A DNA stretch of 64,000 nucleotides from positions 1,171,501 to 1,235,500 of the forward strand of contig NZ_LR134365.1 in the NCBI RefSeq assembly GCF_900637305.1, given 5' to 3'. Of this stretch, positions 5,894 through 27,924 are shown piece by piece; the stretch's first letter is position 1; every line of letters starts with the position of its first letter. Under the pieces are notes generated by a model. It was given only the letters and a program-made list of their open reading frames with translations. It was not told the origin of the DNA and did not search any database. The position numbers and the translations under genes are program-made. This DNA is from Cardiobacterium hominis. Its GTDB lineage: Bacteria > Pseudomonadota > Gammaproteobacteria > Cardiobacteriales > Cardiobacteriaceae.

Positions 5894-6493
5894 GTGCTAT
5901 TGATGATTGATAATTACGATTCGTTTACTTATAACTTGGTGCAGTACTTCGCTGAACTGGGTCAGGATGTGGCTGTCTATCGTAATGATGAAATCAGTGT
6001 TGAGCAAGTGCGCGTCCTCTCGCCAGAGTACATCGTCATCGGTCCAGGCCCTTGTTCGCCAGTGGAAGCAGAAGGGGCGAACGCCATTATTCGCACATTT
6101 GCCGGGAAAATCCCAATGTTGGGCGTTTGCTTGGGGCATCAATGTATGGGGCACGTCTTCGGTGGAAAAGTATTACGTGCGCCTACTGTCATGCATGGCA
6201 AGACGGCTTCTGTTTTTCATACAGATGAAGGGATGTTTCATGGATTATCAAATCCACTTCAGGTGGTACGTTATCATTCGTTGACCGTTTCGCCCCAGCA
6301 TTTGCCACAGGGATTTGTTATGACCGCATGGACACAAGATGATTCGCAGCCAGTTGTGATGGGGATGCGGAATTCTTCTTTGATGATGGAAGGCGTGCAG
6401 TTCCATCCAGAATCGTTTTTAACAGAGTGCGGCCATCAGATGTTAGGTAATTTTATCAAAGCGTTCGCAAGTGACAGGAAGGTTATTGCATGA
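5894..6493 (+). CDS. pabA: aminodeoxychorismate/anthranilate synthase glutamine amidotransferase subunit
   Basis: Class I glutaminase that supplies ammonia to PabB (folate) or TrpE (tryptophan). The 199-residue protein has the oxyanion-hole IGPGPCSP, the nucleophile Cys in GVCLGHQ and the His-Glu pair in FHPES. The VMHGKT motif and the lone position away from trp genes favour PabA, though many bacteria use one subunit for both enzymes. The start is GTG, with AAGGA seven bases upstream. Its stop overlaps the pilB start by four bases, an unusual coupling of folate or tryptophan metabolism with pilus assembly. Confidence 0.9.
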   Translation: MLLMIDNYDSFTYNLVQYFAELGQDVAVYRNDEISVEQVRVLSPEYIVIGPGPCSPVEAEGANAIIRTFAGKIPMLGVCLGHQCMGHVFGGKVLRAPTVMHGKTASVFHTDEGMFHGLSNPLQVVRYHSLTVSPQHLPQGFVMTAWTQDDSQPVVMGMRNSSLMMEGVQFHPESFLTECGHQMLGNFIKAFASDRKVIA

Positions 6494-8184
6494 GTGATTA
6501 TGATCCTTTAATCAGCTATATGGTACAGCACAAAATATGCACACCCGAGCAAATTAGGGAAGTGCAAATTAGTGCGCAGAAAAAACGGGGCAGTTTTTTA
6601 CAACAATTACTGAGTGATGGTTTGATAGACGGTTCACGACTATCGCAAATTAATCGAGAAGTTTACAACTTGCCACAAGTTATGTTGCGCGAATTGGATG
6701 TTAGACGTGAATTAACTGCGCAATTCCCGGAAACCGTTGTGCGAAAACACATGGCGCTTCCTATCTATGCTAATGGTGGACGACTATTTATTGCGACGTT
6801 TGATCCTTCAAACCGTATTATGCTGGAGGAGTTTAAATATCAAGGTAAATTTACTTCTGTTGAACCAATTATAGCGGATATAGGTGTAATAGAAGCACTT
6901 ATAGAGGATCACTACGCTGGTGTAGGCGGGATGGAGAGTGTTTTTGAGGATGAAAATCAAGAACAAGATCTGGATGCCATCAGTGAGGCGCTAGGTAATA
7001 TTGGTGCAAATGAAGAAGAAGCGCCTGTTGTTCGTTTTGTTTCGGGCATGCTAATGGATGCTATTCGTACTGGGGCTTCGGATTTGCACTTTGAGCCTTA
7101 TGAAAATACTTATCGGGTGCGATTCCGCCGAGACGGTGTCTTGCAAGAAGTTGCAGCACCTCCTCCCAGTATTGCAAACCGTATTACTGCACGCTTAAAA
7201 GTTATGGCAAATTTGGATATTGCAGAGAAGCGTGTTCCTCAGGATGGGCGTATTAAACTTCAGGTTTCTGAAACAAAAGCTATCGATTTCCGGGTTAGCT
7301 CATTGCCAACGTTATGGGGAGAAAAAATCGTACTACGTATTCTCGATAGTTCAGCAGCTAAACTAAATATCGATGTTCTTGGCTTTGAACCAGATCAGAA
7401 GCAGCATTATCTCGATGCTATTAGTAAACCCCAAGGTCTAGTATTGGTTACCGGCCCTACTGGCTCAGGTAAAACCGTTTCTCTGTATACCGGGCTATCT
7501 ATTCTGAATAAACCAACTGTTAATATTTCTACTGCTGAAGATCCTGTGGAAATAAACTTACCCGGTATTAACCAGGTTAACGTAAATACCAAGACAGGAT
7601 TGGATTTTGCAGCCGCGCTAAAAGCCTTTTTGCGTCAGGATCCTGATATCATCATGGTTGGGGAGATTCGTGATATCACGACAGGTGAAATTGCCGTAAA
7701 AGCGGCGCAAACGGGGCACTTGGTTTTATCTACATTGCACACTAACGATGTACCACAAACGATTGCACGTTTGGTGAATATCGGGATTCCCTCCTATAAC
7801 ATTGCTGCTAGTGTAAATTTAATCATGGCACAGCGATTGACGCGCCGCTTGTGTAGCCACTGCAAAACGCGTGACCGAAAACATAGTCATGATGAGTTGA
7901 TCGCCTTAGGCTTTGCCGAAGATGAGATTGATGATCTACGGATTTATGCTCCTAAAGGGTGTGAACGTTGCAGTTATCAAGGATATCGTGGTCGCGCGGG
8001 TATTTACCAAGTTGTGCCGATCTCTGAATCGTTGTCAGAAATGATTTTGCATAATGCAGCGGCAGCAGATATTGCTGAACAATGCCAAAAAGAAGGCTAT
8101 TGGGATTTACGTCAATCTGCATTGAATAAAGTACGTCAAGGTCTGACCAGTATTGAAGAGATCTTGCGTGTAACAACTGATTAA
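6490..8184 (+). CDS. pilB: type IV pilus assembly ATPase PilB
   Basis: Cytoplasmic hexameric ATPase that powers pilus extension. The 564-residue protein has an N-terminal MshEN-type domain (about 1-150), Walker A GPTGSGKT (about 321-328), the Asp box EDPVE, Walker B DPDIIMVGEIRD (about 382), the His box HLVLSTLHTND and the zinc-binding pairs CSHC (about 455) and CERC (about 491). The start overlaps the pabA stop. pilC follows after 17 bases with an AAGGAG site. GC content is much lower than in the flanking regions. Confidence 0.97.
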   Translation: MSDYDPLISYMVQHKICTPEQIREVQISAQKKRGSFLQQLLSDGLIDGSRLSQINREVYNLPQVMLRELDVRRELTAQFPETVVRKHMALPIYANGGRLFIATFDPSNRIMLEEFKYQGKFTSVEPIIADIGVIEALIEDHYAGVGGMESVFEDENQEQDLDAISEALGNIGANEEEAPVVRFVSGMLMDAIRTGASDLHFEPYENTYRVRFRRDGVLQEVAAPPPSIANRITARLKVMANLDIAEKRVPQDGRIKLQVSETKAIDFRVSSLPTLWGEKIVLRILDSSAAKLNIDVLGFEPDQKQHYLDAISKPQGLVLVTGPTGSGKTVSLYTGLSILNKPTVNISTAEDPVEINLPGINQVNVNTKTGLDFAAALKAFLRQDPDIIMVGEIRDITTGEIAVKAAQTGHLVLSTLHTNDVPQTIARLVNIGIPSYNIAASVNLIMAQRLTRRLCSHCKTRDRKHSHDELIALGFAEDEIDDLRIYAPKGCERCSYQGYRGRAGIYQVVPISESLSEMILHNAAAADIAEQCQKEGYWDLRQSALNKVRQGLTSIEEILRVTTD

Positions 8185-8201
8185 CTTCAAGGAGTAATCT
8201 T

Positions 8202-9419
8202 ATGGAAACCAAAAAAGAGCTAAAAACCTATCAGTGGAAAGGTAAAAACAAACTGGGGAAAGAAATTTCAGGTGAAAATGATGCTAAAAATGATGCGGTG
8301 TTAAAAGCATTCTTAGCAAAGCAGGGCTTAGTTAATGTTACGGTTAAAGAGAAACCAAAGCCACTGTTTGAGTCTAAAGGTAGGATTAAAAGTAAAGATA
8401 TTTTATTCTTTACTCGGCAGATGGCAACAATGTTACGCGCAGGGATGCCAGTGCTAAGAGCATTAGATCTGGTTGGCGAAAGTATTGAAAAACCATTGGC
8501 AATGCGTGAGATGGTTTTTGATCTCTATGAACGTATTCAAAATGGTGCGACATTAGCAGAAGCAATGCGGGCCCACCCATTGCAATTTGATGATCTTTAT
8601 ACTAGTTTGATCGCAGCAGGTGAAGATGCGGGTATGCTGGAATCTACGATGGATAATATTGCTTTGAACTTGGAAAAAGGTGAAGCAACAAAGAAAAAGG
8701 TAAAGAAAGCTTTAACCTATCCTGCTATTGTTATGGTTTTTGCTATTATTGTAACTGCTATTTTATTAATTAATGTTGTTCCTGTTTTTGCACAATTCTT
8801 TCTTTCGAATGGTGGTGAACTTCCATGGTTGACACAGTTTGTGGTAGATATTTCAAATTTTATGGTGCAAAAAGGGATGTATTTTTTTATTGCATTTGTT
8901 TTCTTAGGATACGTATTCTTTTATGTCAAGAGACGCAATAAAAATGTCCAAGAGAAAACTAATATTGTGATGTTTAAAACGCCTATTATAGGTGGAATAT
9001 TAAAATGCGGTGCCAATGCACGTTTTGCACGCACGATGTCAACTTTATTTAACGCAGGTGTTCCTTTAATGCGAGGATTACAGGCGACGGCCCCTGCCAC
9101 AGGTAGCGTTCTTTATGAACGTGCGGTGTATGAGATTCGCGACGATGTGCAAAATGGTCAACAAATGAGCTTTGCCATGAAAAATACGGGACTATTCCCT
9201 ACTATTGCCGTGCAAATGACGGCGATAGGTGAAGAATCCGGTAACTTGGGAGAAATGCTGGGTCGTGTAGCCACTTATTACGAAGAAGAATTGGATTGGA
9301 GGATTGATAATCTGACTGCTATGATTGAACCTGCTATCATGGCATTCTTAGCCGTAGTAGTGGGCGGTTTAATCATTGCAATGTATCTGCCAATCTTCGA
9401 CTTGGGGAAATTGTTCTAA
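8202..9419 (+). CDS. pilC: type IV pilus inner-membrane platform protein PilC
   Basis: Polytopic inner-membrane protein that couples PilB to pilin extraction and insertion. The 405 residues hold two tandem T2SSF domains (about 60-195 and 265-395), with signatures FFTRQMATMLRAGMPVLRAL and FARTMSTLFNAGVPLMRGL. There are membrane spans near 165-195, 225-245 and 370-395. Its stop overlaps the pilD start by one base. This is the most AT-rich gene in the block; for example 8701-8760 has 18 G/C in 60. Confidence 0.97.
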   Translation: METKKELKTYQWKGKNKLGKEISGENDAKNDAVLKAFLAKQGLVNVTVKEKPKPLFESKGRIKSKDILFFTRQMATMLRAGMPVLRALDLVGESIEKPLAMREMVFDLYERIQNGATLAEAMRAHPLQFDDLYTSLIAAGEDAGMLESTMDNIALNLEKGEATKKKVKKALTYPAIVMVFAIIVTAILLINVVPVFAQFFLSNGGELPWLTQFVVDISNFMVQKGMYFFIAFVFLGYVFFYVKRRNKNVQEKTNIVMFKTPIIGGILKCGANARFARTMSTLFNAGVPLMRGLQATAPATGSVLYERAVYEIRDDVQNGQQMSFAMKNTGLFPTIAVQMTAIGEESGNLGEMLGRVATYYEEELDWRIDNLTAMIEPAIMAFLAVVVGGLIIAMYLPIFDLGKLF

Positions 9420-10300
9420 TGTCTTTTTTATTGAATACAGAAATTTTCCAAACGCCAATCGGTATTTTACTGGTTGGCGTTATTGGTTTAATGGTAGGCA
9501 GTTTTCTTAACGTCGTCATTTATCGCTTGCCGATTATGATGGGACGTGCTGAAAAAATTTATGCTTGGGAAGTTTTACATACGGATAAGGAAGGAGCAGG
9601 AGAAAATCCTTTTGAACCGACGGAGCACTTTAATTTAATGGTACCTGGTTCTCGTTGTCCACATTGCGGCACAGAAATTCGTTTTTGGCAGAATATTCCC
9701 GTAGTGAGTTATTTATTGCAACGTGGGCGCTGTGTAGGATGCGGTACTAAGATTACGATTCGCTACCTTCTGGTAGAAGTATTGTGCGCGGTATTAAGCA
9801 TCTTGGTAGTGCTGAAATACCCAGACCCGTGGCAATTGGCTTTTGCGTTGCTGCTGACCTGGGGGTTGTTGGCCTTGATTTTTATTGATGCCGAACAACA
9901 GATATTGCCCGATGTAATTACTTTGCCACTGATGTGGTTAGGGATCGTTGCGGCCTGCGTTCAGGGCGGGCTTTTCATCGGTTTGCGCGAGAGTGTCATC
10001 GGTGCAATGGTCGGTTATTTGTCCTTGTGGTCTGTCTATTGGCTGTTCCGTTTGGTGACAGGGAAAGAAGGCATGGGTTATGGTGATTTCAAGCTCTTGG
10101 CATTGCTTTGTGCGTGGCAAGGGATTGTGATGTTGCCGTTTATTTTGTTCTTTTCTGCATTGACCGGAATTGTTTTTGCGCTGATCAACCGTATTGGTTA
10201 TGGCGTTCCTATGGCTTTCGGCCCTTATTTGGCGATAGCAGGATGGCTGACGTTTATGTATGGTGGAGAGATCGCCGCAATAACTGGCCTTTCTTTGTAA
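9419..10300 (+). CDS. pilD: prepilin peptidase / N-methyltransferase PilD
   Basis: Integral membrane aspartyl protease that cleaves the prepilin leader and methylates the new N-terminus. The 293-residue protein has the cytoplasmic zinc site CPHCGTE...CVGCGTK (about 80-110) and both catalytic aspartates, in DAEQQILPD and GYGDFK. About eight hydrophobic spans are visible. It follows pilC directly and precedes coaE by one base, the usual gammaproteobacterial order pilB-pilC-pilD-coaE. No pilin gene is in this window. Confidence 0.97.
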   Translation: MSFLLNTEIFQTPIGILLVGVIGLMVGSFLNVVIYRLPIMMGRAEKIYAWEVLHTDKEGAGENPFEPTEHFNLMVPGSRCPHCGTEIRFWQNIPVVSYLLQRGRCVGCGTKITIRYLLVEVLCAVLSILVVLKYPDPWQLAFALLLTWGLLALIFIDAEQQILPDVITLPLMWLGIVAACVQGGLFIGLRESVIGAMVGYLSLWSVYWLFRLVTGKEGMGYGDFKLLALLCAWQGIVMLPFILFFSALTGIVFALINRIGYGVPMAFGPYLAIAGWLTFMYGGEIAAITGLSL

Positions 10301-18411: not shown

Positions 18412-18804
18412 TTATTTGCGCGAATCAAGGAAGATGACTTTGATATTGCGCTTGCCGTCTTCATCGTCCACGTCGTATCCGATGCTGTACAGCGGCACGT
18501 TGCCTTCGGCGTCCATCTTGTTGTATTTCAGCTCGGCGTGTTCCCCGTCCACTTCTTCCGTTTCCGGCTGCAAGCCTTGCTCTTTGGCCTTGGCCTGGAT
18601 AAAGGCGGCAATGTCGGCAACCTTGGCATCGGTGGCGACGGTGAAATCGATGCCGCCGGTGCCGTCGTCTTCGCCTTCCACGAAGGTTACTTTTTCCGGC
18701 AGGAAGACTTCGGCAGGGACGCTTTTCAGGTCTTTCAGCGGGGTGTCGGCGAAAGCGGCAACGGATACCAGGGTCATGGCAGCGGCGAGCAGGGATTTTT
18801 TCAT
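18412..18804 (-). CDS. small exported protein of unknown function
   Basis: A 130-residue protein with a clear signal peptide (MKKSLLAAAMTLVSVAAFA, cleavage before DTP) and an acidic mature part rich in Asp and Glu (EGEDDGTGG, DVDDEDGKR). I chose MKKSLL, since GGAG lies seven bases upstream. The mature part may be a small alpha/beta domain (KVADIAAFIQAKAKEQGLQP). I do not recognise the family. It is a single-gene unit with its own terminator. Confidence 0.75.
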   Translation of the reverse strand: MKKSLLAAAMTLVSVAAFADTPLKDLKSVPAEVFLPEKVTFVEGEDDGTGGIDFTVATDAKVADIAAFIQAKAKEQGLQPETEEVDGEHAELKYNKMDAEGNVPLYSIGYDVDDEDGKRNIKVIFLDSRK

Positions 18805-19005: not shown

Positions 19006-19671
19006 ATGACCCGCACGTTTCGTACCCTGCTTGCCAGCGCCCTGCTTGCTGCTGCCGTCCCGACCGTTTTCGCCGAAGACGCCAAACCTGTCGGCGAACC
19101 CGCCAAAGCGGCGGAAAGCGCCAGCGAACCGGCACAACAACCCCAGCCGGAAGGCTACCATTTCGCCCTGACCGGCCCGGGAAACCAGGCCGTTACCGAC
19201 GCGAGCGAGCCGTTCAAGGACAAATACCTGCTAGTCGCTTTCGGCTTCACCTCCTGCCCGGACGTCTGCCCGACCACCCTCTACGAATTCGCGCAGATGC
19301 TGAAAATCGTCAAGGCGCCGGAGAAAATCCAGCCCGTCTTCATCAGCATCGACCCGCTGCGCGACGATTCCGAGCGCTTAAACCAGTACACCGGCTACTT
19401 CGACAAACGCATCGTCGGCCTGACCGGCGCGATGGCCGACATCGAAGCCACCGCCAAGCGCTACAGCGCCACCTTCGGCTACCGTCACAACGGCAAAAAA
19501 GTCGTGCCGCCCGACCTGCCGGAAGGCTACACCGTCTATCACAGCACCATGATTTACCTGCTCTCGCCGGAGCGCGAACTCATTGACGCCTTCGATTACC
19601 AAAGCGGCGCGGACAAACTGGCGCGCGACATCGACAAAGCCATCAGCAAAGCAGAAGGCGGCAAATCATGA
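19006..19671 (+). CDS. SCO1/SenC-family periplasmic protein
   Basis: A 221-residue exported protein: signal peptide of about 23 residues ending FAED, an Ala/Pro/Glu-rich linker, then the SCO1 thioredoxin fold. The copper/redox motif is CPDVCP (FTSCPDVCPTT) and the distal histidine lies in VYHSTMIYLL. SCO proteins deliver copper to, or reduce, cytochrome oxidase CuA or other cuproenzymes. Here the leader looks cleavable, with no membrane anchor, so the protein may be soluble. Its stop overlaps the next start by four bases. Confidence 0.9.
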   Translation: MTRTFRTLLASALLAAAVPTVFAEDAKPVGEPAKAAESASEPAQQPQPEGYHFALTGPGNQAVTDASEPFKDKYLLVAFGFTSCPDVCPTTLYEFAQMLKIVKAPEKIQPVFISIDPLRDDSERLNQYTGYFDKRIVGLTGAMADIEATAKRYSATFGYRHNGKKVVPPDLPEGYTVYHSTMIYLLSPERELIDAFDYQSGADKLARDIDKAISKAEGGKS

Positions 19672-20168
19672 AGCGCCTGACCATCACCCTGCTCGCCGCC
19701 CTCCTGGGCGGCGTTGCGCAAGCAGCCGACTGCATCCCGCCGGAAGGCTTCCAGCCGGCAAGCTCACCGGCACCGCTGCACGACATCATCAAGCGCGACG
19801 CCAAACAGCGCGTCGCCCTGCTCAACGTCTGGGCCATCTGGTGCGCGCCCTGCCGCAAAGAACTGCCGCTGCTCGACAACATCGCACAGGACGAAAACGC
19901 GCCGCTGGAAATCATCACCCTGAACCTCGGCGACGACCCGGCAGTCATCGACAAAATCTACGACGAACTGCACATTACCGCCCTGCCGCGCGACAACCAC
20001 GGCGACCACGCCCTGCTGAAAACCCTCGGCGGCGTCGGCCTGCCGCTGTCTGTCTGGTACGTGGATGACAAAATGATTGCTAAAAGCGCGGGCGCGCTGC
20101 ACGACGGCGACGCCCTCGTCGCCTACGCCCGCTGTCTGAACGATAACCGCGAAGGAAGCCAGCCATGA
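19668..20168 (+). CDS. periplasmic TlpA-like thioredoxin
   Basis: A 166-residue protein with a signal peptide ending VAQA and a thioredoxin fold whose active site is WCAPCRKELPLL. This is the reductant type found with cytochrome maturation and copper proteins. A late cis-proline region (GLPLSVWYV) is present. Two further cysteines (ADC at the mature N-terminus and ARC near the end) may form an extra disulfide. It overlaps both neighbours by four bases, so it probably serves the SCO1 protein, the propeller, or both. Confidence 0.87.
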   Translation: MKRLTITLLAALLGGVAQAADCIPPEGFQPASSPAPLHDIIKRDAKQRVALLNVWAIWCAPCRKELPLLDNIAQDENAPLEIITLNLGDDPAVIDKIYDELHITALPRDNHGDHALLKTLGGVGLPLSVWYVDDKMIAKSAGALHDGDALVAYARCLNDNREGSQP

Positions 20169-21370
20169 AACGCCGCCAACTCCTCCTCGCCACAGGCGCC
20201 GCCGCACTCGCCCGCCCGCTGTGGGCACTACAACCGCCCGGCAACGCCGCGGCAACGCCGGTCGCCACAAGCGCGCCGCCCGAAACTGCCGCCCCGCAAA
20301 GCCTCTACGACCCGACGCGCTACGTCTTCGTCGCCGACAAGGGCATGAGTAACATTGCCGTCGTCGATCTCGAAGAAGAACGCCAGGTGGACACCCTGCG
20401 CTCGCCCGTCGCCATCCGCACCTTCGCCAGCAGCACCGACAAACCCTGGCTGGCGATTAGCGACCAGCGCCGCTACGCCATCACCCTCATTAACCTCGAA
20501 ACCCGCGACATCCAGGAAATCCCGCTGCCCAGCCGCGCCTTCCGCCTCACCTTCGTCCCGGAAAGCAGCAAAATCGCCGTCACCCTCGAAGACCGCGTCG
20601 GCATGATTGACTACCGCAGCGGCGAAGTGAACATCCTCGAAAAAACCTTCCAGAACCTCTACACTCGCTTCAACACCATCTTCAGCGTTTACAGCCAGAC
20701 CTTCTGGGTACTGCAAGAAAACACCCCGCTCATCTACCAATACAGCTACAGCGACCCGGCAAAAGGCTGGCAAACCATCGACATCGGCGAAACCCGTGGC
20801 TTGGGCAGCGGCGCGCCGAGCTTTGAAGACCGCCTCATCGCCTTCAACACCTACTACGCCGACGAAGGCATCATCTACTTCGCCGACACCGGCAAAGTCA
20901 TCAAAACCGGGCCGCTCTACGACTCCAAGCAGCTGAACGAACGGCTGCTCGAACCCTTCATCGACAACGGCATGAAACACGTCATCTTCGGCGACCTGGG
21001 CGGCAACATCCTCATCTACGAACCCGACGTCAGCGACGAACCCAAGCGGCTCCAACTGGGCTACCGCCCGCGCAAATTCCGCACCGGCTGGCTCGACCGC
21101 TACCTCGTTGTCGGCGGCGACCGCCACCTCAGCATCCATCCCTTCGACAACCTCGAAGAACGCATCCAGCTGGATTTCGGCTACGACGAAGACGTCACCG
21201 ACATGTGGATCAGCGGCGACAGCAAACTGGTGCTTTACAGCAAAGAATACAAACCCGTGCTCTCGCGCTACAACCTGCAAACCCAGGAAAGCCTGCCGGA
21301 CATCCGCCTAAACGGCATCGTCCAGGCCGACTGGATCCGCATGGGCAGCACCAACAACGTCTGCTACTGA
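20165..21370 (+). CDS. Tat-exported beta-propeller protein
   Basis: A 401-residue protein whose N-terminus MKRRQLLLATGAAALARP is a twin-arginine signal. The rest shows repeated blade-like strands (YVFVADKGMSNIAVVDLE, DRVGMIDYRSGE, GGNILIYEPDV, DRHLSIHPFDN), as in YncE or the methylamine dehydrogenase heavy chain. Tat export implies folding, perhaps with a cofactor, in the cytoplasm. It ends in NNVCY with a lone cysteine. The function is not recognised; its operon partners suggest a redox or copper role in the periplasm. Confidence 0.8.
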   Translation: MKRRQLLLATGAAALARPLWALQPPGNAAATPVATSAPPETAAPQSLYDPTRYVFVADKGMSNIAVVDLEEERQVDTLRSPVAIRTFASSTDKPWLAISDQRRYAITLINLETRDIQEIPLPSRAFRLTFVPESSKIAVTLEDRVGMIDYRSGEVNILEKTFQNLYTRFNTIFSVYSQTFWVLQENTPLIYQYSYSDPAKGWQTIDIGETRGLGSGAPSFEDRLIAFNTYYADEGIIYFADTGKVIKTGPLYDSKQLNERLLEPFIDNGMKHVIFGDLGGNILIYEPDVSDEPKRLQLGYRPRKFRTGWLDRYLVVGGDRHLSIHPFDNLEERIQLDFGYDEDVTDMWISGDSKLVLYSKEYKPVLSRYNLQTQESLPDIRLNGIVQADWIRMGSTNNVCY

Positions 21371-22025: not shown

Positions 22026-23738
22026 TCAATGTTTATGCCGGAACAGTCTGCCGATGGCGGGGATGAGCGCGAGGTAGAGCGCTTGGGCGGCGATGCTTTC
22101 CCAGTTGGGATAGAAGCCGATGTTGGGCAGGGAGGGCAGGGCGCTCACCGCGTGGGTCGGCAGGATTTGGGTGAGTTGCAGCGCGTGGATGCTGACGCCC
22201 AGGATTTTGAAGCCGAGCGCGTAGATAAGCCAGGTCATCACTTTGAACATGAGGTGCATCGGCAGGCGCAGGCTGCCCTGGTTCATCAGCACGGCGATAA
22301 ACGCGAGCAGGGCGACGGCGAGGCCGATGCCGGCCAGCAGGTCGCCGGTGGTGATTTGCGGCAGCATGCCGACGTAGAAAAGGATGGTCTCCGCGCCTTC
22401 GCGGAAGACGGCGAGGAAGCTCAGGAGTATCATGGAGACAAGGCTGCCGGTGGCGAGCGCTTGTGCCACTTGTTTGTCCACGAATTTTTTCCAGCCTTCG
22501 ATGCTGGATTTGCTGTGCAGCCAGGCGCCGATGAAGAGCATCATGATGACGGCGACGATGCCGACCGCACCTTCGAGGATTTCGCGGTTGGTGCCGGCGG
22601 CGGCGAGGCTGGGGAAGAGGCGTTGCAGGGCGATGGCGCCGATGATGCTGGCGACAAGTCCCAGCGCGGCGCCGCCGTAAACCCAGCGTTTGGCGTGTGG
22701 CTGGCGCGCGGCGTTGAGTGCTGCGATGAGCGCCATGACGACGAGCAGCGCTTCGACGCCTTCGCGCAGGAGAACGAGCATGGCGTCAATGATGCCGTAG
22801 CTGGCGCTGATGTCGATGGCTTTGAGGTCACTCACCAGGGTTTGCAGGCGGGCGATGTTCGCAGGCTCGCTGCCTTTGCTCATGATGACCGGCAGTTCGC
22901 TTTCAACGCGGGCGTATAGTGCACCGTCGCGGGTTTGCACGTCGCCTTCAAAGATGGGCCATTGTTGGATGAAGGTGCCGATGTCGCTGCTGGCGCTCGC
23001 GCTGTCGCCGTTTTGCAGGGCGGTGAGCGCCTGTTCGAGGAGGTTGATGCCGTCCGGCAGGGTTTGCGGCGCGTTGGCGGCGACTTGCGGCTGGAGGGTG
23101 TTGCCCGCTTTGAAGTCGTTCAGGGCGTCACCGAGGCGTTGCGCCTGTTTTTCCATTTCGGGGTAGTTCGGCGGCTCGGCGAGCATGGCGACGCGCAGGA
23201 AGGCCATGGCGTTTTCGATTTGTCCGTAGTGGCCGAGGCTGGTTTCGCGCACGATTTTTTCGTTGAGCGTCCAGGTGCTGTTGAAGCGTTTGTAGATGGT
23301 TTGTGCGTCTTCGAGGTTATGCGCGACGACGGCGTCGTGCAGTTGGTCATAGACCGGCATCACCCGCTTGGCGAAGGCTTGGCGGGCGGCGGCGTAGTCC
23401 ACCGGGTTTTGTTCTTTTTCAAAGGTGTAGAGCGCGCGCGACAGGCTTTCGAGGCTGGCGGCGTCCGGGCGGGCGAGGGCGGCATCAAGTGCGGCGCTGA
23501 CTTTTTGTCCGGCGGGCGAGTCGTGGTTGTCGAGCGCGGTAAAGGTTTGTTTGATGGCTTGCAGGTGCGGGGTGGCGCGGGCGCGGTCGTTTTGTTTGAC
23601 GGCGCTCATGGCGTCGGAGAGTTCGATAAAGAGCGGGCTGGTGTTTACCGCCGCCTGCACCGCGCCGCCCACGAGGGCGAGCGCGAGGACGAACAGCAGG
23701 CTAATTTTGTGTAAACAGTGTTTTGCCGAGGTAGTCAT
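22026..23738 (-). CDS. efeU: FTR1-family iron permease (EfeU-like) with periplasmic extension
   Basis: Inner-membrane iron importer. The 570 residues comprise a signal-like N-terminus, a helical domain of about 270 residues probably in the periplasm, then a seven-span FTR1 domain (about 310-565) with both REGxE iron motifs: LREGVEALL and FREGAETILF. E. coli EfeU lacks the long extension; related forms are known in other bacteria. The start overlaps the end of efeB by 38 bases. No later start would keep the leader peptide. It is the last gene of efeO-efeB-efeU. Confidence 0.9.
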   Translation of the reverse strand: MTTSAKHCLHKISLLFVLALALVGGAVQAAVNTSPLFIELSDAMSAVKQNDRARATPHLQAIKQTFTALDNHDSPAGQKVSAALDAALARPDAASLESLSRALYTFEKEQNPVDYAAARQAFAKRVMPVYDQLHDAVVAHNLEDAQTIYKRFNSTWTLNEKIVRETSLGHYGQIENAMAFLRVAMLAEPPNYPEMEKQAQRLGDALNDFKAGNTLQPQVAANAPQTLPDGINLLEQALTALQNGDSASASSDIGTFIQQWPIFEGDVQTRDGALYARVESELPVIMSKGSEPANIARLQTLVSDLKAIDISASYGIIDAMLVLLREGVEALLVVMALIAALNAARQPHAKRWVYGGAALGLVASIIGAIALQRLFPSLAAAGTNREILEGAVGIVAVIMMLFIGAWLHSKSSIEGWKKFVDKQVAQALATGSLVSMILLSFLAVFREGAETILFYVGMLPQITTGDLLAGIGLAVALLAFIAVLMNQGSLRLPMHLMFKVMTWLIYALGFKILGVSIHALQLTQILPTHAVSALPSLPNIGFYPNWESIAAQALYLALIPAIGRLFRHKH

Positions 23739-24909
23739 TTTCGTCTTTTACTCCGGGGAAGCAGGCGAAGATGCCGCTGCCGATGTGGGTGATGTATTCG
23801 TTCATTTTGTCCACGTTGCCAAAGGCGTTCTGGATGTCGATGAAGGCTTTGGGGTCTTTTTGGTAGGAGAGGAACAGCAAGCCGGTGTCGAACTGGCTTT
23901 TGTCGTCTATGCCGCTGGCGTAGGAAAAGGAGCGGCGCAGGATGTTGTGGCCGGTGGCGTGTGCCAGGCGGGCGTGCGAGGTTTCGGGCATCGCCGGTTC
24001 GCCCTTGTCGTTTTTGAGGCTAAGGTTGATGGGTTCGTGTTCTTCGTGCTGTCCCATCGGCGCGCCGCTGTCGCGGTAGCGGCCAAAGGTGTTGTGCTGT
24101 TCGCCGAGGCTGGTGCGGTCCCAGGTTTCTAAAAACATTTTGATGCGCCGCGCGATGAGGTAGCTGCCGCCTTTGAGCCAGCCATCGCTCTCTACCCAGA
24201 CGACTTTGTCGAGGTTTTCGCCGCTGAAGTTGGCGGTGCCGTCTTTGAAGGCGAAGAGGTTGCGCGGGGTTTCGCTGGCGCTGTCGTAGGAGTTGAAGCC
24301 CGCCTGGCTCCAGCGCATGGTGAGGTTCAAGCGCGCACCGCGCACGAGGTTGCGCACCGCGTGGAAGGCGACTTGCGGGTCATCGGCGCAGGCCTGGATG
24401 CAGAGGTCGCCGCCGGTGTAGGCCGCTTGCAGTTGGTCGCGCGGGAAGTGCGGCAGGTCGGCGAGTTCGGCCGGGCGCAGGTGCTCCATTTTCAGCTTGC
24501 TGAAGAAGCTGGGGCTGACGCCAAAGGTGAGGGTGAGATTGTGCGGGTTGAGGCTGTCTGCTTCGCCGGTGTCGGTCGGCGGGATGTAGAGGTTTTTGCT
24601 GTAGGGTTTGACGTGCTCGCCGCGGGTGAGGTTCAGGCTGTAGGCCGTCCACAGCTGGAACATTTCCTGGATTTTTTCGCGGTCATCGCTGTGCAGGTCG
24701 GCGACGAGGAAGTAGATATGTTTTTGTGCCGGGGTAGTGATGCCCGCCTGATGGCTGCCGTAGAAGGGGATTTCGTTATGCGCGGGCGGGTTGGTGGCGG
24801 CAGGCGGGCAGGGTGCGCCTTCTGCTTTCGCAGCAGTGCCGGCAACGAGGCCGGCACTGATGATTCCGCATTGTTTGATAAAACCCCGACGCGATGGTGC
24901 ATCTGTCAT
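23701..24909 (-). CDS. efeB: deferrochelatase/peroxidase EfeB (DyP-type, Tat-exported)
   Basis: Haem-containing DyP-type peroxidase of the ferrous-iron uptake complex, in the periplasm. The 402-residue protein has a twin-arginine leader (SRRGFIKQCGIISAGLVAG), the DyP motif FAFKDGTAN with the catalytic Asp, and the distal-side GRYRDSGAPMG arginine. Known roles are oxidation of iron for uptake by the FTR1 permease, or iron release from haem; which applies here is not decided. It sits between efeO (23 bases upstream) and efeU (overlapping). Confidence 0.93.
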   Translation of the reverse strand: MTDAPSRRGFIKQCGIISAGLVAGTAAKAEGAPCPPAATNPPAHNEIPFYGSHQAGITTPAQKHIYFLVADLHSDDREKIQEMFQLWTAYSLNLTRGEHVKPYSKNLYIPPTDTGEADSLNPHNLTLTFGVSPSFFSKLKMEHLRPAELADLPHFPRDQLQAAYTGGDLCIQACADDPQVAFHAVRNLVRGARLNLTMRWSQAGFNSYDSASETPRNLFAFKDGTANFSGENLDKVVWVESDGWLKGGSYLIARRIKMFLETWDRTSLGEQHNTFGRYRDSGAPMGQHEEHEPINLSLKNDKGEPAMPETSHARLAHATGHNILRRSFSYASGIDDKSQFDTGLLFLSYQKDPKAFIDIQNAFGNVDKMNEYITHIGSGIFACFPGVKDENDYLGKTLFTQN

Positions 24910-24932
24910 TTTATGGCCTTGTGGTTGGTGGG

Positions 24933-25790
24933 TTATTCGATGATGACGCCCATTTGTGCGAGCGGTTCGCCGAGTTTGTTCACCGCTTCGGCGAGTGCCT
25001 TGATTTCGTCTTTGCTCAGGGTGTCGTAACCGGCGTAGTCGTAGCTGCCGTCTTTCGCCTTGTTGTGCTTGTCGAGCAGGGCGTTCACCGCTTTGAACTG
25101 GGCTTCGATTTCGCCAGCGAGTTTTTTGTCTTTGGCTTCCAGCGCAGGCTTGAACAGTTCGAAGATTTTTTCGGCGCCTTCGATGTTGGCCTTGAAGTCA
25201 AAGAGATCGGTCTTGGAGAAGATGTCTTCTTCGCCGGTAATCTTGGTGGTGGATACTTCGTTCAGGAGGTCAACCGCACCGGTAACCATCAGCTGCGGGG
25301 TGACGTCCACCGTCGGGATTTTGGCGCGCAGTTCTTTGATGTCTTTCACCAGTTGGTCGGCGATTTCTTCGGTGCCCTTGGTGGTTTTGTCTTCCCAGAG
25401 GATGCGCTCGATTTTGTGGAAACCGGTCCAGATGGCGGTTGCGTGTTTTTCGGCGTCGGCGTCATCTTTGGCCTTGCCTGCTTCTTTCACTTCGGCGGTG
25501 AGGTCGGCGAGACGGGCGTCGATACGCGGGTCAAGGTCGCCAAAGCTCTCGGCGATCGGCTCGGAGCGCTCGTAGTACATGCGCGCGACGGCATAGACTT
25601 TCTTGGCGTTTTCCAGATCGCCTTTCTTCAGGTAATCGGCGAATTTTTCGGTGTCCGCCAGCAGCAGGTCAATCTGCTCGACGACGAATTTTTTGTACGC
25701 TTCGGTTTCCTTGGAAAGGTCGGCAGCAGCGCTGGCGTTGAAGGAAAGCACGCTGAAGCCAAGAGCAAGGGCAAGGGTTTTCAGTTTCAT
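24933..25790 (-). CDS. efeO: EfeO/EfeM-type periplasmic iron-binding protein (M75 family)
   Basis: Periplasmic partner of the EfeUOB iron importer. The 285-residue protein has a signal peptide (MKLKTLALALGFSVLSFNAS) and an M75 imelysin-like helical domain with the HxxE metal motif in GFHKIERILWE. E. coli EfeO is about 90 residues longer because of an N-terminal cupredoxin domain, which is absent here, so this is the shorter EfeM form. I chose MKLKTL, with GGAG five bases upstream; a longer in-frame extension has no such site. It is the first gene of the operon. Confidence 0.9.
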   Translation of the reverse strand: MKLKTLALALGFSVLSFNASAAADLSKETEAYKKFVVEQIDLLLADTEKFADYLKKGDLENAKKVYAVARMYYERSEPIAESFGDLDPRIDARLADLTAEVKEAGKAKDDADAEKHATAIWTGFHKIERILWEDKTTKGTEEIADQLVKDIKELRAKIPTVDVTPQLMVTGAVDLLNEVSTTKITGEEDIFSKTDLFDFKANIEGAEKIFELFKPALEAKDKKLAGEIEAQFKAVNALLDKHNKAKDGSYDYAGYDTLSKDEIKALAEAVNKLGEPLAQMGVIIE

Positions 25791-25999
25791 GGAGACTCCA
25801 TTGGACAGGGTTTGCGAAGATGTGAACGAAAGCCGCAGCGGGGCGGTTTTGCCGCGCGGCAGGATGGTCAAATTCGGAAACATTCTCAAATGATTTTTTG
25901 TTGCAAGTTACGTTTAAAAATACTTGCTGATTAGGCGGATAGCTGTGCGAAAGCGTGTTTTGCCACAGGCAGGTTTGCACTGTGTGTGATGAATTCGCC

Positions 26000-26020
26000 A
26001 TAATAACGCTTTCAATTATC
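26000..26020 (+). promoter_or_regulatory. AT-rich inverted repeat before the second FTR1 gene
   Basis: ATAAT and ATTAT face each other across ten bases, about 20 bases before the start codon in the efeO/FTR1 divergent interval. The place fits a regulator of both units, but the sequence is not a good Fur-box match, so identity is open. Confidence 0.25.
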
Positions 26021-26037
26021 CTGGAGAAAATTCCGTC

Positions 26038-27924
26038 ATGACCGCCTGCCGCCGTTTCATCGCCTGTTTGCTGCTTCTTTGTATGTTGCCACTCGCCGCG
26101 CAGGATTTTCGCGCCTTTGCCGACGACATCGCGCAGCGGCTGGATGCCACCAACGAGCTCTACCAGCAGGGCAAGACCGATGAGGCGAAGCAGAAGGTGC
26201 AGATGGCCTATTTTGAGGTCTTTGAAAACCTGGAAGGGCCGATTCGCATCAATATTTCCGCGCAAAAGAGCGCGGAGATGGAAGCGGAATTTGGCAATAT
26301 CCGCCGCCTGATTGGCAACGGCGCGCCGCAGGAGGAAGTGCAGCAGCGCCTGCAAGCGTTGCGCGACGAGGTGCAAAAGGTCGTGCCGGTCTTGGAAAGC
26401 GGTCACAAGCTGGTAGCGCATGGCTCGCATTCGGCGCTTGACGGCATTGACCCCGGCTGGGCGGTGGCCTATCAGGCGCTGGATGACAATCTCGCCGCCG
26501 CCGTCTCCGCTTTTGAAAAGGGTAACGGCGCCGAGGCGAAAAAACGTGTGCAGCAGGCGCAGTACGACGGCTTCAAAAACAGCGATATGGAAACCACCAT
26601 CCGCATGCAAAAATCGGCACGGGCGGCGGAGGTGATTAACCGCCAATTTGCCGCGCTGATGAAACAGGCGGATTCTGACGACACCATCGACGCCTTCGGC
26701 TACAGCGTCAGCACCCTGCTCGGTGACGTGCAGGACGCGCTGCAAGGCGTCCCCGCGCCGGCAAGCGCCGCGGCGCCGGTGGAAGACACGGCAAGCGCGG
26801 GCAAGGACTGGTCGGGCACACAGAAGGAATTGCTGGCGGCGCTGGCGCAAGCAACGCAGACCTACCAGGCGGGCGACACCGCCAAAGCGGTCGGCCAGGT
26901 GCAAGACACTTATTTCGACATCTTTGAAGCGAGCGGCATGGAAAACGCCGTCGGCGCGCGCGACGCCAACTTCAAAACCGAACTGGAAGGGCATTTCACC
27001 AAAATCGTCGGCCTGATGAACGCGGGCAAAGACGTCGCCAGCATCCAGCAAGAAATCGCCGCCTTCTCCGCCGGTCTCGACAAGGCGCTGGAACTGCTTG
27101 GCGGCAACCAGGGCGGCATCGCGCTGTTCTTCTTCAGCCTGACCATCATCCTGCGCGAGGGGCTGGAAGCGCTGCTCATCGTCGCCGCGGTCATTGCGTA
27201 CATTCACAAAAGCGGGCATGGTGACAAGCAAAAAGTCATCAACAACTCCGTCTGCTGGGCGCTGGGCGCAAGCGTCATCACCGCGCTGCTGTTCCAATGG
27301 CTGCTCACCAACGCTGCCGCCGGGCGCGAAATCCTCGAAGGTGTCACCATGCTGATAGCCACCGTCATGCTCTTTGGCATGAGCTACTGGCTGCTCTCCA
27401 AGGTGGAAGCGCAGCACTGGAAGGCGTACCTACAGAAAAAAATCGGCACCTCGCTCTCGCAAGGCTCGCTCATCGGCCTGTGGCTGACCAGCTTCCTTGC
27501 CGTCTATCGCGAAGGCGCGGAAACCGTGCTGTTCTACTTCGCCCTCGCTGCCGACGCCAAAACCGCGCTGGATTATGGCTATCTGTTCGGCGGGCTGGCG
27601 GTGGGCATCGTCATCCTCGCCGTGGTGTACCTCATCATGCGCTACAGCGTGGTGCGCCTGCCGCTCAAACCCTTCTTCATCTTCACCGGCATCTTCATGT
27701 ACCTGATGGCGTTCATCTTCGCCGGCAAAGGCGTCGCCGAACTCATCGAAGGCAAAGCCTTCACCCCGACGCTGATTGGCGACGGCACCCTCTTCCCGAA
27801 ATGGATGGGCGACTGGCTCGGCATCATGCCCTATCGGGAAACGCTCCTGCCGCAACTCGTACTGCTCGCCGCCGCGCTCTTCGCCCTCTGGGTGCTGTTC
27901 GGGCGCAAAAAAACGACTTCCTAA
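26038..27924 (+). CDS. FTR1-family iron permease, FetM-like
   Basis: A second FTR1 permease. The 628 residues include a signal peptide, a long periplasmic region of about 340 residues made of two related halves (each with QAYFEVFE- or DTYFDIFE-like segments: AYFEVFENLEGPIR and TYFDIFEASGMENA), and a seven-span FTR1 domain with LREGLEALL and YREGAETVLF. This architecture matches the FetM permease that pairs with a P19/FetP protein, encoded 29 bases downstream. GGAGA lies ten bases before the ATG. It diverges from efeOBU across 247 bases. Confidence 0.9.
   Translation: MTACRRFIACLLLLCMLPLAAQDFRAFADDIAQRLDATNELYQQGKTDEAKQKVQMAYFEVFENLEGPIRINISAQKSAEMEAEFGNIRRLIGNGAPQEEVQQRLQALRDEVQKVVPVLESGHKLVAHGSHSALDGIDPGWAVAYQALDDNLAAAVSAFEKGNGAEAKKRVQQAQYDGFKNSDMETTIRMQKSARAAEVINRQFAALMKQADSDDTIDAFGYSVSTLLGDVQDALQGVPAPASAAAPVEDTASAGKDWSGTQKELLAALAQATQTYQAGDTAKAVGQVQDTYFDIFEASGMENAVGARDANFKTELEGHFTKIVGLMNAGKDVASIQQEIAAFSAGLDKALELLGGNQGGIALFFFSLTIILREGLEALLIVAAVIAYIHKSGHGDKQKVINNSVCWALGASVITALLFQWLLTNAAAGREILEGVTMLIATVMLFGMSYWLLSKVEAQHWKAYLQKKIGTSLSQGSLIGLWLTSFLAVYREGAETVLFYFALAADAKTALDYGYLFGGLAVGIVILAVVYLIMRYSVVRLPLKPFFIFTGIFMYLMAFIFAGKGVAELIEGKAFTPTLIGDGTLFPKWMGDWLGIMPYRETLLPQLVLLAAALFALWVLFGRKKTTS

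Follow-up and report, generated by a model that had tools for sequence, protein, structure and literature searches.

The three overlapping genes described here lie in a stretch of 64,000 nucleotides from Cardiobacterium hominis (the window, meaning the whole stretch that was analysed). On balance, they seem to form a periplasmic copper-delivery module with an exported beta-propeller-like protein, which we call PROP, as the copper-handling partner, and with the copper nitrite reductase NirK as the most likely client in the Cardiobacteriaceae. This reading is based on gene order, on co-occurrence and on the invariance of the C-terminal tail of PROP. The features concerned are as follows.

19006 to 19671, plus strand: predicted SCO1/SenC-type copper chaperone, 221 aa, with a cleavable signal peptide; codons of C84 from 19255, C88 from 19267 and H179 at 19540-19542.
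19668 to 20168, plus strand: TlpA-like periplasmic thioredoxin, 166 aa, with WCAPC; C59 at 19842-19844.
20165 to 21370, plus strand: PROP, exported beta-propeller-like protein of an unnamed family (subgroup A), 401 aa, with a Tat-like signal.
21341 to 21367, plus strand: C-terminal tail of PROP, M393-GSTNNV-C400-Y401, with the Met and Cys invariant in 17 of 17 members.

An earlier note on this DNA had read it as three open reading frames, each overlapping the next by four bases, and as encoding an SCO1-like protein, a WCAPC thioredoxin and a propeller-like protein. The coordinates are correct, and both junctions are ATGA overlaps (SCO1/TlpA at 19668-19671 and TlpA/PROP at 20165-20168). The first product is a member of the SCO1/SenC family (PF02630, E=6e-34, 117 bits against a cut-off of 22.8), and the CPDVCP motif (C84 and C88) and the distal His (H179) pointed out in the note are invariant among the nine relatives compared. 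The second is indeed a secreted protein with a thioredoxin fold and a WCxxC motif; it matches Thioredoxin_8 (E=1.6e-6) and the TlpA, DsbE and ResA models (E=1e-9 to 1e-12), its scores being below the equivalog cut-offs of the latter, so that it is assigned at the family level only. The absence of a nearby cytochrome oxidase gene, also claimed in the note, is true for the window; a cbb3 oxidase and a quinol NO reductase (the latter at about 1.56 Mb) are encoded elsewhere in this genome, G000, which consists of one contig of 2.67 Mb.

PROP itself has no match above cut-off to a curated family in Pfam or NCBIfam, and these collections gave no match for the PROP family either, NCBIfam having been run over all 17 members. 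The window protein is 75% identical to a protein of Cardiobacterium valvarum. An AlphaFold2 model built from five sequences (mean pLDDT 70, pTM 0.71) is all-beta, and its top PDB fold matches are beta-propellers, namely NirN, the d1 domain of NirS, NirF and AztD, with NirN/NirS ranking first; the propeller-like nature proposed for the third protein is thereby supported. A sequence search of the PDB with PROP returned generic propeller repeats only. As generic propeller similarity is expected, the modelled matches would support a propeller fold and little more. The signal sequence begins MKRRQLLL and is Tat-like, as it had been read before, but the NCBIfam Tat model TIGR01409, which does report EfeB, does not report it. 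Moreover, the twin arginine is found in Cardiobacterium PROP and in one paralogue, whereas the orthologues next to nirK have ordinary signals without RR. Tat export thus does not seem to be a conserved property, and the argument from a Tat signal to a folded cofactor protein would fail.

Profile searches covered 32 genomes from the order, 369 from the class, 399 from the phylum and 395 from a second order, and full-length PROP relatives were found in the Cardiobacteriales and in one other genus only, which is presumably Vibrio-like, judging from its genome shape. Partial matches in other Gammaproteobacteria were rejected as members, since they seem to be generic YVTN/YncE-type propellers or off-frame, without the Cys tail. 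A PROP tree resolves subgroups A, B, C, D and V, with long branches and an unsure root. Subgroup A contains the window protein and its orthologues, and SCO1 adjoins the orthologue in eight of eight genomes from four genera, so this gene order is not due to chance. Subgroup B comes from two genomes and lies downstream of a TlpA gene (L035, L037). Subgroup C is present in every genome that has subgroup A and is mostly located downstream of a PCuAC gene; PROP paralogues adjoin PCuAC at L038, L039, L040, L041 and L043. Subgroup D, in G013, has the order SCO1-TlpA-PCuAC-PROP, and subgroup V, in the Vibrio-like G729 and G621, belongs to a cluster of PCuAC, an NrfH-like tetrahaem cytochrome, a cytochrome c-Lcl_C protein (Lcl_C denoting DUF1566 domains), PROP, SCO1, TlpA and a small cytochrome c (L155:5543-11239 and L156:4358-9695). 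Because subgroups D and V both have the full set, it can fairly be inferred that one ancestral SCO1-TlpA-PCuAC-PROP module was later split among paralogues. The Vibrio-like cluster seems to encode an undescribed reductase of the periplasm, together with genes for copper maturation. Octahaem sulfite reductase, a haem-copper enzyme, was considered as the enzyme of this cluster and rejected, the protein being a cytochrome c with Lcl_C domains. A decaying version of the cluster was seen in G962 (L162:5276-7200, on G962:C5), where PROP and SCO1 are fragmented with stops, TlpA and the cytochrome c are intact, and the upstream enzyme genes were not seen adjoining.

By the earlier note's own test, propeller homologues that mostly occur without SCO1 or thioredoxin genes would have spoken against its reading. 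We found the opposite: SCO1, a thioredoxin or PCuAC adjoins or clusters with PROP at 19 of 22 loci, or at 19 of the 20 whose neighbours can be read. The remaining three are subgroup C loci, one in G008 without such a neighbour and those of G011 and G002 at contig ends. The family is undescribed and almost always stands next to copper chaperones. A literature search for papers that combine PCuAC and a propeller, or that deal with a nitrite reductase of Cardiobacterium, found nothing relevant. G008 also encodes a natural SCO1-TlpA fusion protein of 351 aa (G008:C12, L142:5521-6576) with PCuAC immediately after it, which directly supports the idea that SCO1 and TlpA act together.

A conserved signature of the family lies at its C terminus. 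The sole invariant Met and Cys, M393 and C400 in window numbering, fall within the last nine residues in all 17 aligned members, several of which are just 18-25% identical to the window protein. Every member ends in the pattern M-x6-C-[Y/F/H], with Met at -9 and Cys always penultimate (-2), and the terminal residue is Tyr in subgroup A, Phe in subgroup B and His in subgroups C, D and V. Other propellers that the PROP profile matches weakly are without this tail. As candidate soft ligands, the Met and Cys would suit Cu(I). The last seven residues have low confidence in the AlphaFold2 model, which could reflect either a mobile arm or a thin alignment. No conserved His column was found among the 17 members, across all subgroups, and this argues against a classical copper or haem enzyme.

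The earlier note had proposed that the propeller could itself be a novel copper or redox enzyme, with SCO1 and TlpA as its dedicated maturation factors. What stands is that the operon is a real unit tied to copper-site maturation factors. Copper and haem enzymes do occur among propellers (NosZ, NirS), and PROP is secreted, shares the operon and the fold, and gives NirN/NirS as its best fold match. The enzyme itself is where the proposal falters: there is no conserved His and no CXXCH in PROP, its single invariant Met and Cys both sit in the last nine residues, a complete NirK adjoins PROP in five relatives and is the more obvious client, and the tail alone is common to paralogues whose chaperones differ. 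We therefore regard an enzymatic PROP as quite improbable; it is probably a copper-delivery accessory instead. A rather unlikely explanation, though one that deserves consideration, is that PROP carries no metal and is a scaffold or thiol client, its single Cys being joined to SCO1 or TlpA by a mixed disulfide, which would time copper release. TlpA-like partners reduce cysteine thiols, and the one invariant penultimate Cys and the almost constant presence of SCO1, TlpA or PCuAC alongside PROP would fit such a role. However, the PCuAC-only pairs of subgroup C have no neighbouring thioredoxin, and the invariant Met, together with the terminal His of subgroups C, D and V, fits a soft metal site better.

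The evidence for NirK as the client of the copper-delivery module is of two kinds. The order SCO1-PROP-nirK is found in G005, G007, G008, G010 and G011, which represent three genera, and the nirK product has multicopper/NirK domains; in G005, G007 and G010 the set is immediately preceded by a gene for a NorB-type quinol NO reductase. Against this, nirK is not next to SCO1-TlpA-PROP in Cardiobacterium itself; in G000 it is located at G000:C1:658927-660057 with the ligand motifs HNIDFH and HCAPGG..MIPWH intact. In addition, nirK and subgroup A PROP occur in the same 8 of 12 Cardiobacteriaceae genomes and are both missing from the other 4, which at the genus level means four genera with against three without, so that phylogenetic dependence limits the weight of this co-occurrence; the synteny across three genera is the stronger part of the support. 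Beside an intact nirK, the subgroup A gene is frameshifted once in G005 (in a C run) and several times in G007 (L034:8280-9500 and L036:8250-9450), and these copies still encode the tail. In G007 the quinol NO reductase and the subgroup C gene are split as well, and these other broken genes suggest sequencing error. If the frameshifts are real, PROP would be dispensable.

Alternatively, the module may serve the CuB centre of cbb3 or of another haem-copper oxidase, the nirK linkage being a matter of operon convenience. Sco and PCuAC are known to assist in oxidase assembly (Thompson 2012, as cited in PMC13006917), and in G013 cbb3 and the complete SCO1-TlpA-PCuAC-PROP set occur without NirK. We consider this unlikely, because G004, with its complete set of clustered cbb3 genes, lacks SCO1, PCuAC, subgroup A PROP and nirK, indicating that the set tracks NirK and not the oxidase. 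Likewise, G012, G018 and G022, from another family, have oxidases without SCO1, PCuAC or PROP, and G008 has its separate SCO1-TlpA fusion and PCuAC besides SCO1-PROP-nirK. The presence of the module without NirK in G013 and in the Vibrio-like genomes does indicate that the PROP family is not NirK-specific.

FNR-like boxes, defined by at least 9 of 10 matching positions, are present before nirK in G000, G001, G002 and G005, before the nirK-containing operons of G007, G008, G010 and G011, before the PCuAC-PROP operons (subgroup C) of G000 and G001 and before the SCO1-TlpA fusion of G008. The background rate was 25 of 330 genes, several of these being divergent partners that share one box. No good FNR-like box was found before the window operon, where the best candidate (7/10) was equalled by 44% of shuffles. 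These boxes would connect the module in part with anaerobic respiration, not in the window itself.

Close to the operon, at 22026-27924 of the window, are EfeUOB-type iron uptake genes. FTR1, EfeB (a DyP peroxidase) and an EfeO with the imelysin part alone lie on the minus strand, and another FTR1, of 628 aa, is divergently oriented; both long FTR1 proteins have N-terminal extensions and lack a cupredoxin domain. In G002 these genes are directly downstream, and the operon could be thought to belong with them, supplying copper for iron oxidation. We give hardly any credence to this, as the genes are not near the operon in C. valvarum or in the five nirK-linked genomes, and the link was rejected as a general property for that reason. 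In addition, the window EfeO matches only the imelysin half of EfeO models, there is no cupredoxin domain that would point to copper, and neither EfeO nor FTR1b is preceded by an FNR-like box. On the other side of the operon, a small secreted protein of 129-130 aa is encoded on the opposite strand (18412-18804); it has no Pfam or NCBIfam match, and a conserved counterpart precedes the SCO1 operon in C. valvarum (phmmer 2e-34). Farther away, at 6490-10300, lie the type IV pilus genes pilB, pilC and pilD, in this order; they were identified by sequence reading rather than by family search.

Several known systems resemble the copper-delivery module in part. The haem d1 propellers NirF, NirN and NirS include the top fold match of the PROP model, and NirF has an accessory role for a nitrite reductase. 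However, these propellers are 13-16% identical to PROP, which has neither the conserved haem d1 His nor a cytochrome domain and is linked to NirK, not NirS; with no NCBIfam or Pfam match and a fold match only, membership of this group was rejected. The copper propellers NosZ and L-NosZ, with their CuZ His cluster and CuA domain, were rejected as well, since PROP has no conserved His and no cupredoxin domain match; L-NosZ gave a weak partial match to one distant PROP member only. Sco-TlpA-PCuAC delivery to oxidases involves identical chaperone and reductant families, also clustered, but here a propeller is added and, in five genomes, nirK replaces the oxidase genes. AztD is a propeller metallochaperone whose tail, disordered in the metal-free state, carries a C-terminal His that serves as a metal ligand (PMC6689063). 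Like PROP as we propose it, AztD is secreted, has a beta-propeller fold and passes metal on to a partner protein, and it is among the top fold matches. In contrast, AztD has His-rich sites (a central pore His triad and HxxHxD) where PROP has only Met and Cys, and it is encoded beside the aztABC zinc ABC importer, whereas the neighbours of PROP are SCO1, TlpA, PCuAC, nirK and the quinol NO reductase. PROP was not accepted as an AztD member, having neither these His columns nor the aztABC context. In Neisseria gonorrhoeae, the PCuAC protein AccA was shown in 2026 to insert copper directly into the NirK enzyme AniA (PMC13006917). This is again a periplasmic copper chaperone that loads NirK, and PCuAC adjoins PROP paralogues here; PROP is unrelated to it in sequence, and PMC13006917 mentions neither a propeller nor TlpA. 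Its authors note that some bacteria with NirK have no AccA, and an unidentified metallochaperone is mentioned there only as the other possibility besides direct loading (PMC13006917). In our reading, PROP would resemble AccA and AztD in its way of working, yet it does not show those hallmarks of AztD, NosZ and the haem d1 propellers that were tested.

From these data we infer that the tail binds copper and that NirK is the client, and also the direction of transfer and the mechanism. In the proposed sequence of events, TlpA would keep thiols reduced, SCO1 would be the copper carrier and the secreted PROP would cooperate with both in copper handling. PROP would probably present or receive Cu(I) via its flexible tail (Met393, Cys400 and the aromatic or His end) and, in the Cardiobacteriaceae, would help to load NirK, the most likely client of the set. 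The paralogous propellers may pair with TlpA alone or with PCuAC, and PROP relatives outside the Cardiobacteriaceae may serve other periplasmic respiratory enzymes. A more far-reaching idea, which we put forward tentatively as a possibility with the odds somewhat against it, is that PROP represents a new family of propeller-based periplasmic copper chaperones that hold Cu(I) on a Met-x6-Cys-(His/aromatic) tail and load NirK together with SCO1 and TlpA, the paralogues being specialised by their partner chaperone. The supply of copper to NirK, an enzyme of key importance in denitrification, is only now being elucidated, and this operon provides a concrete candidate set together with an undescribed protein family. 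If the idea is true, copper would join the metals that are handled by propeller chaperones.
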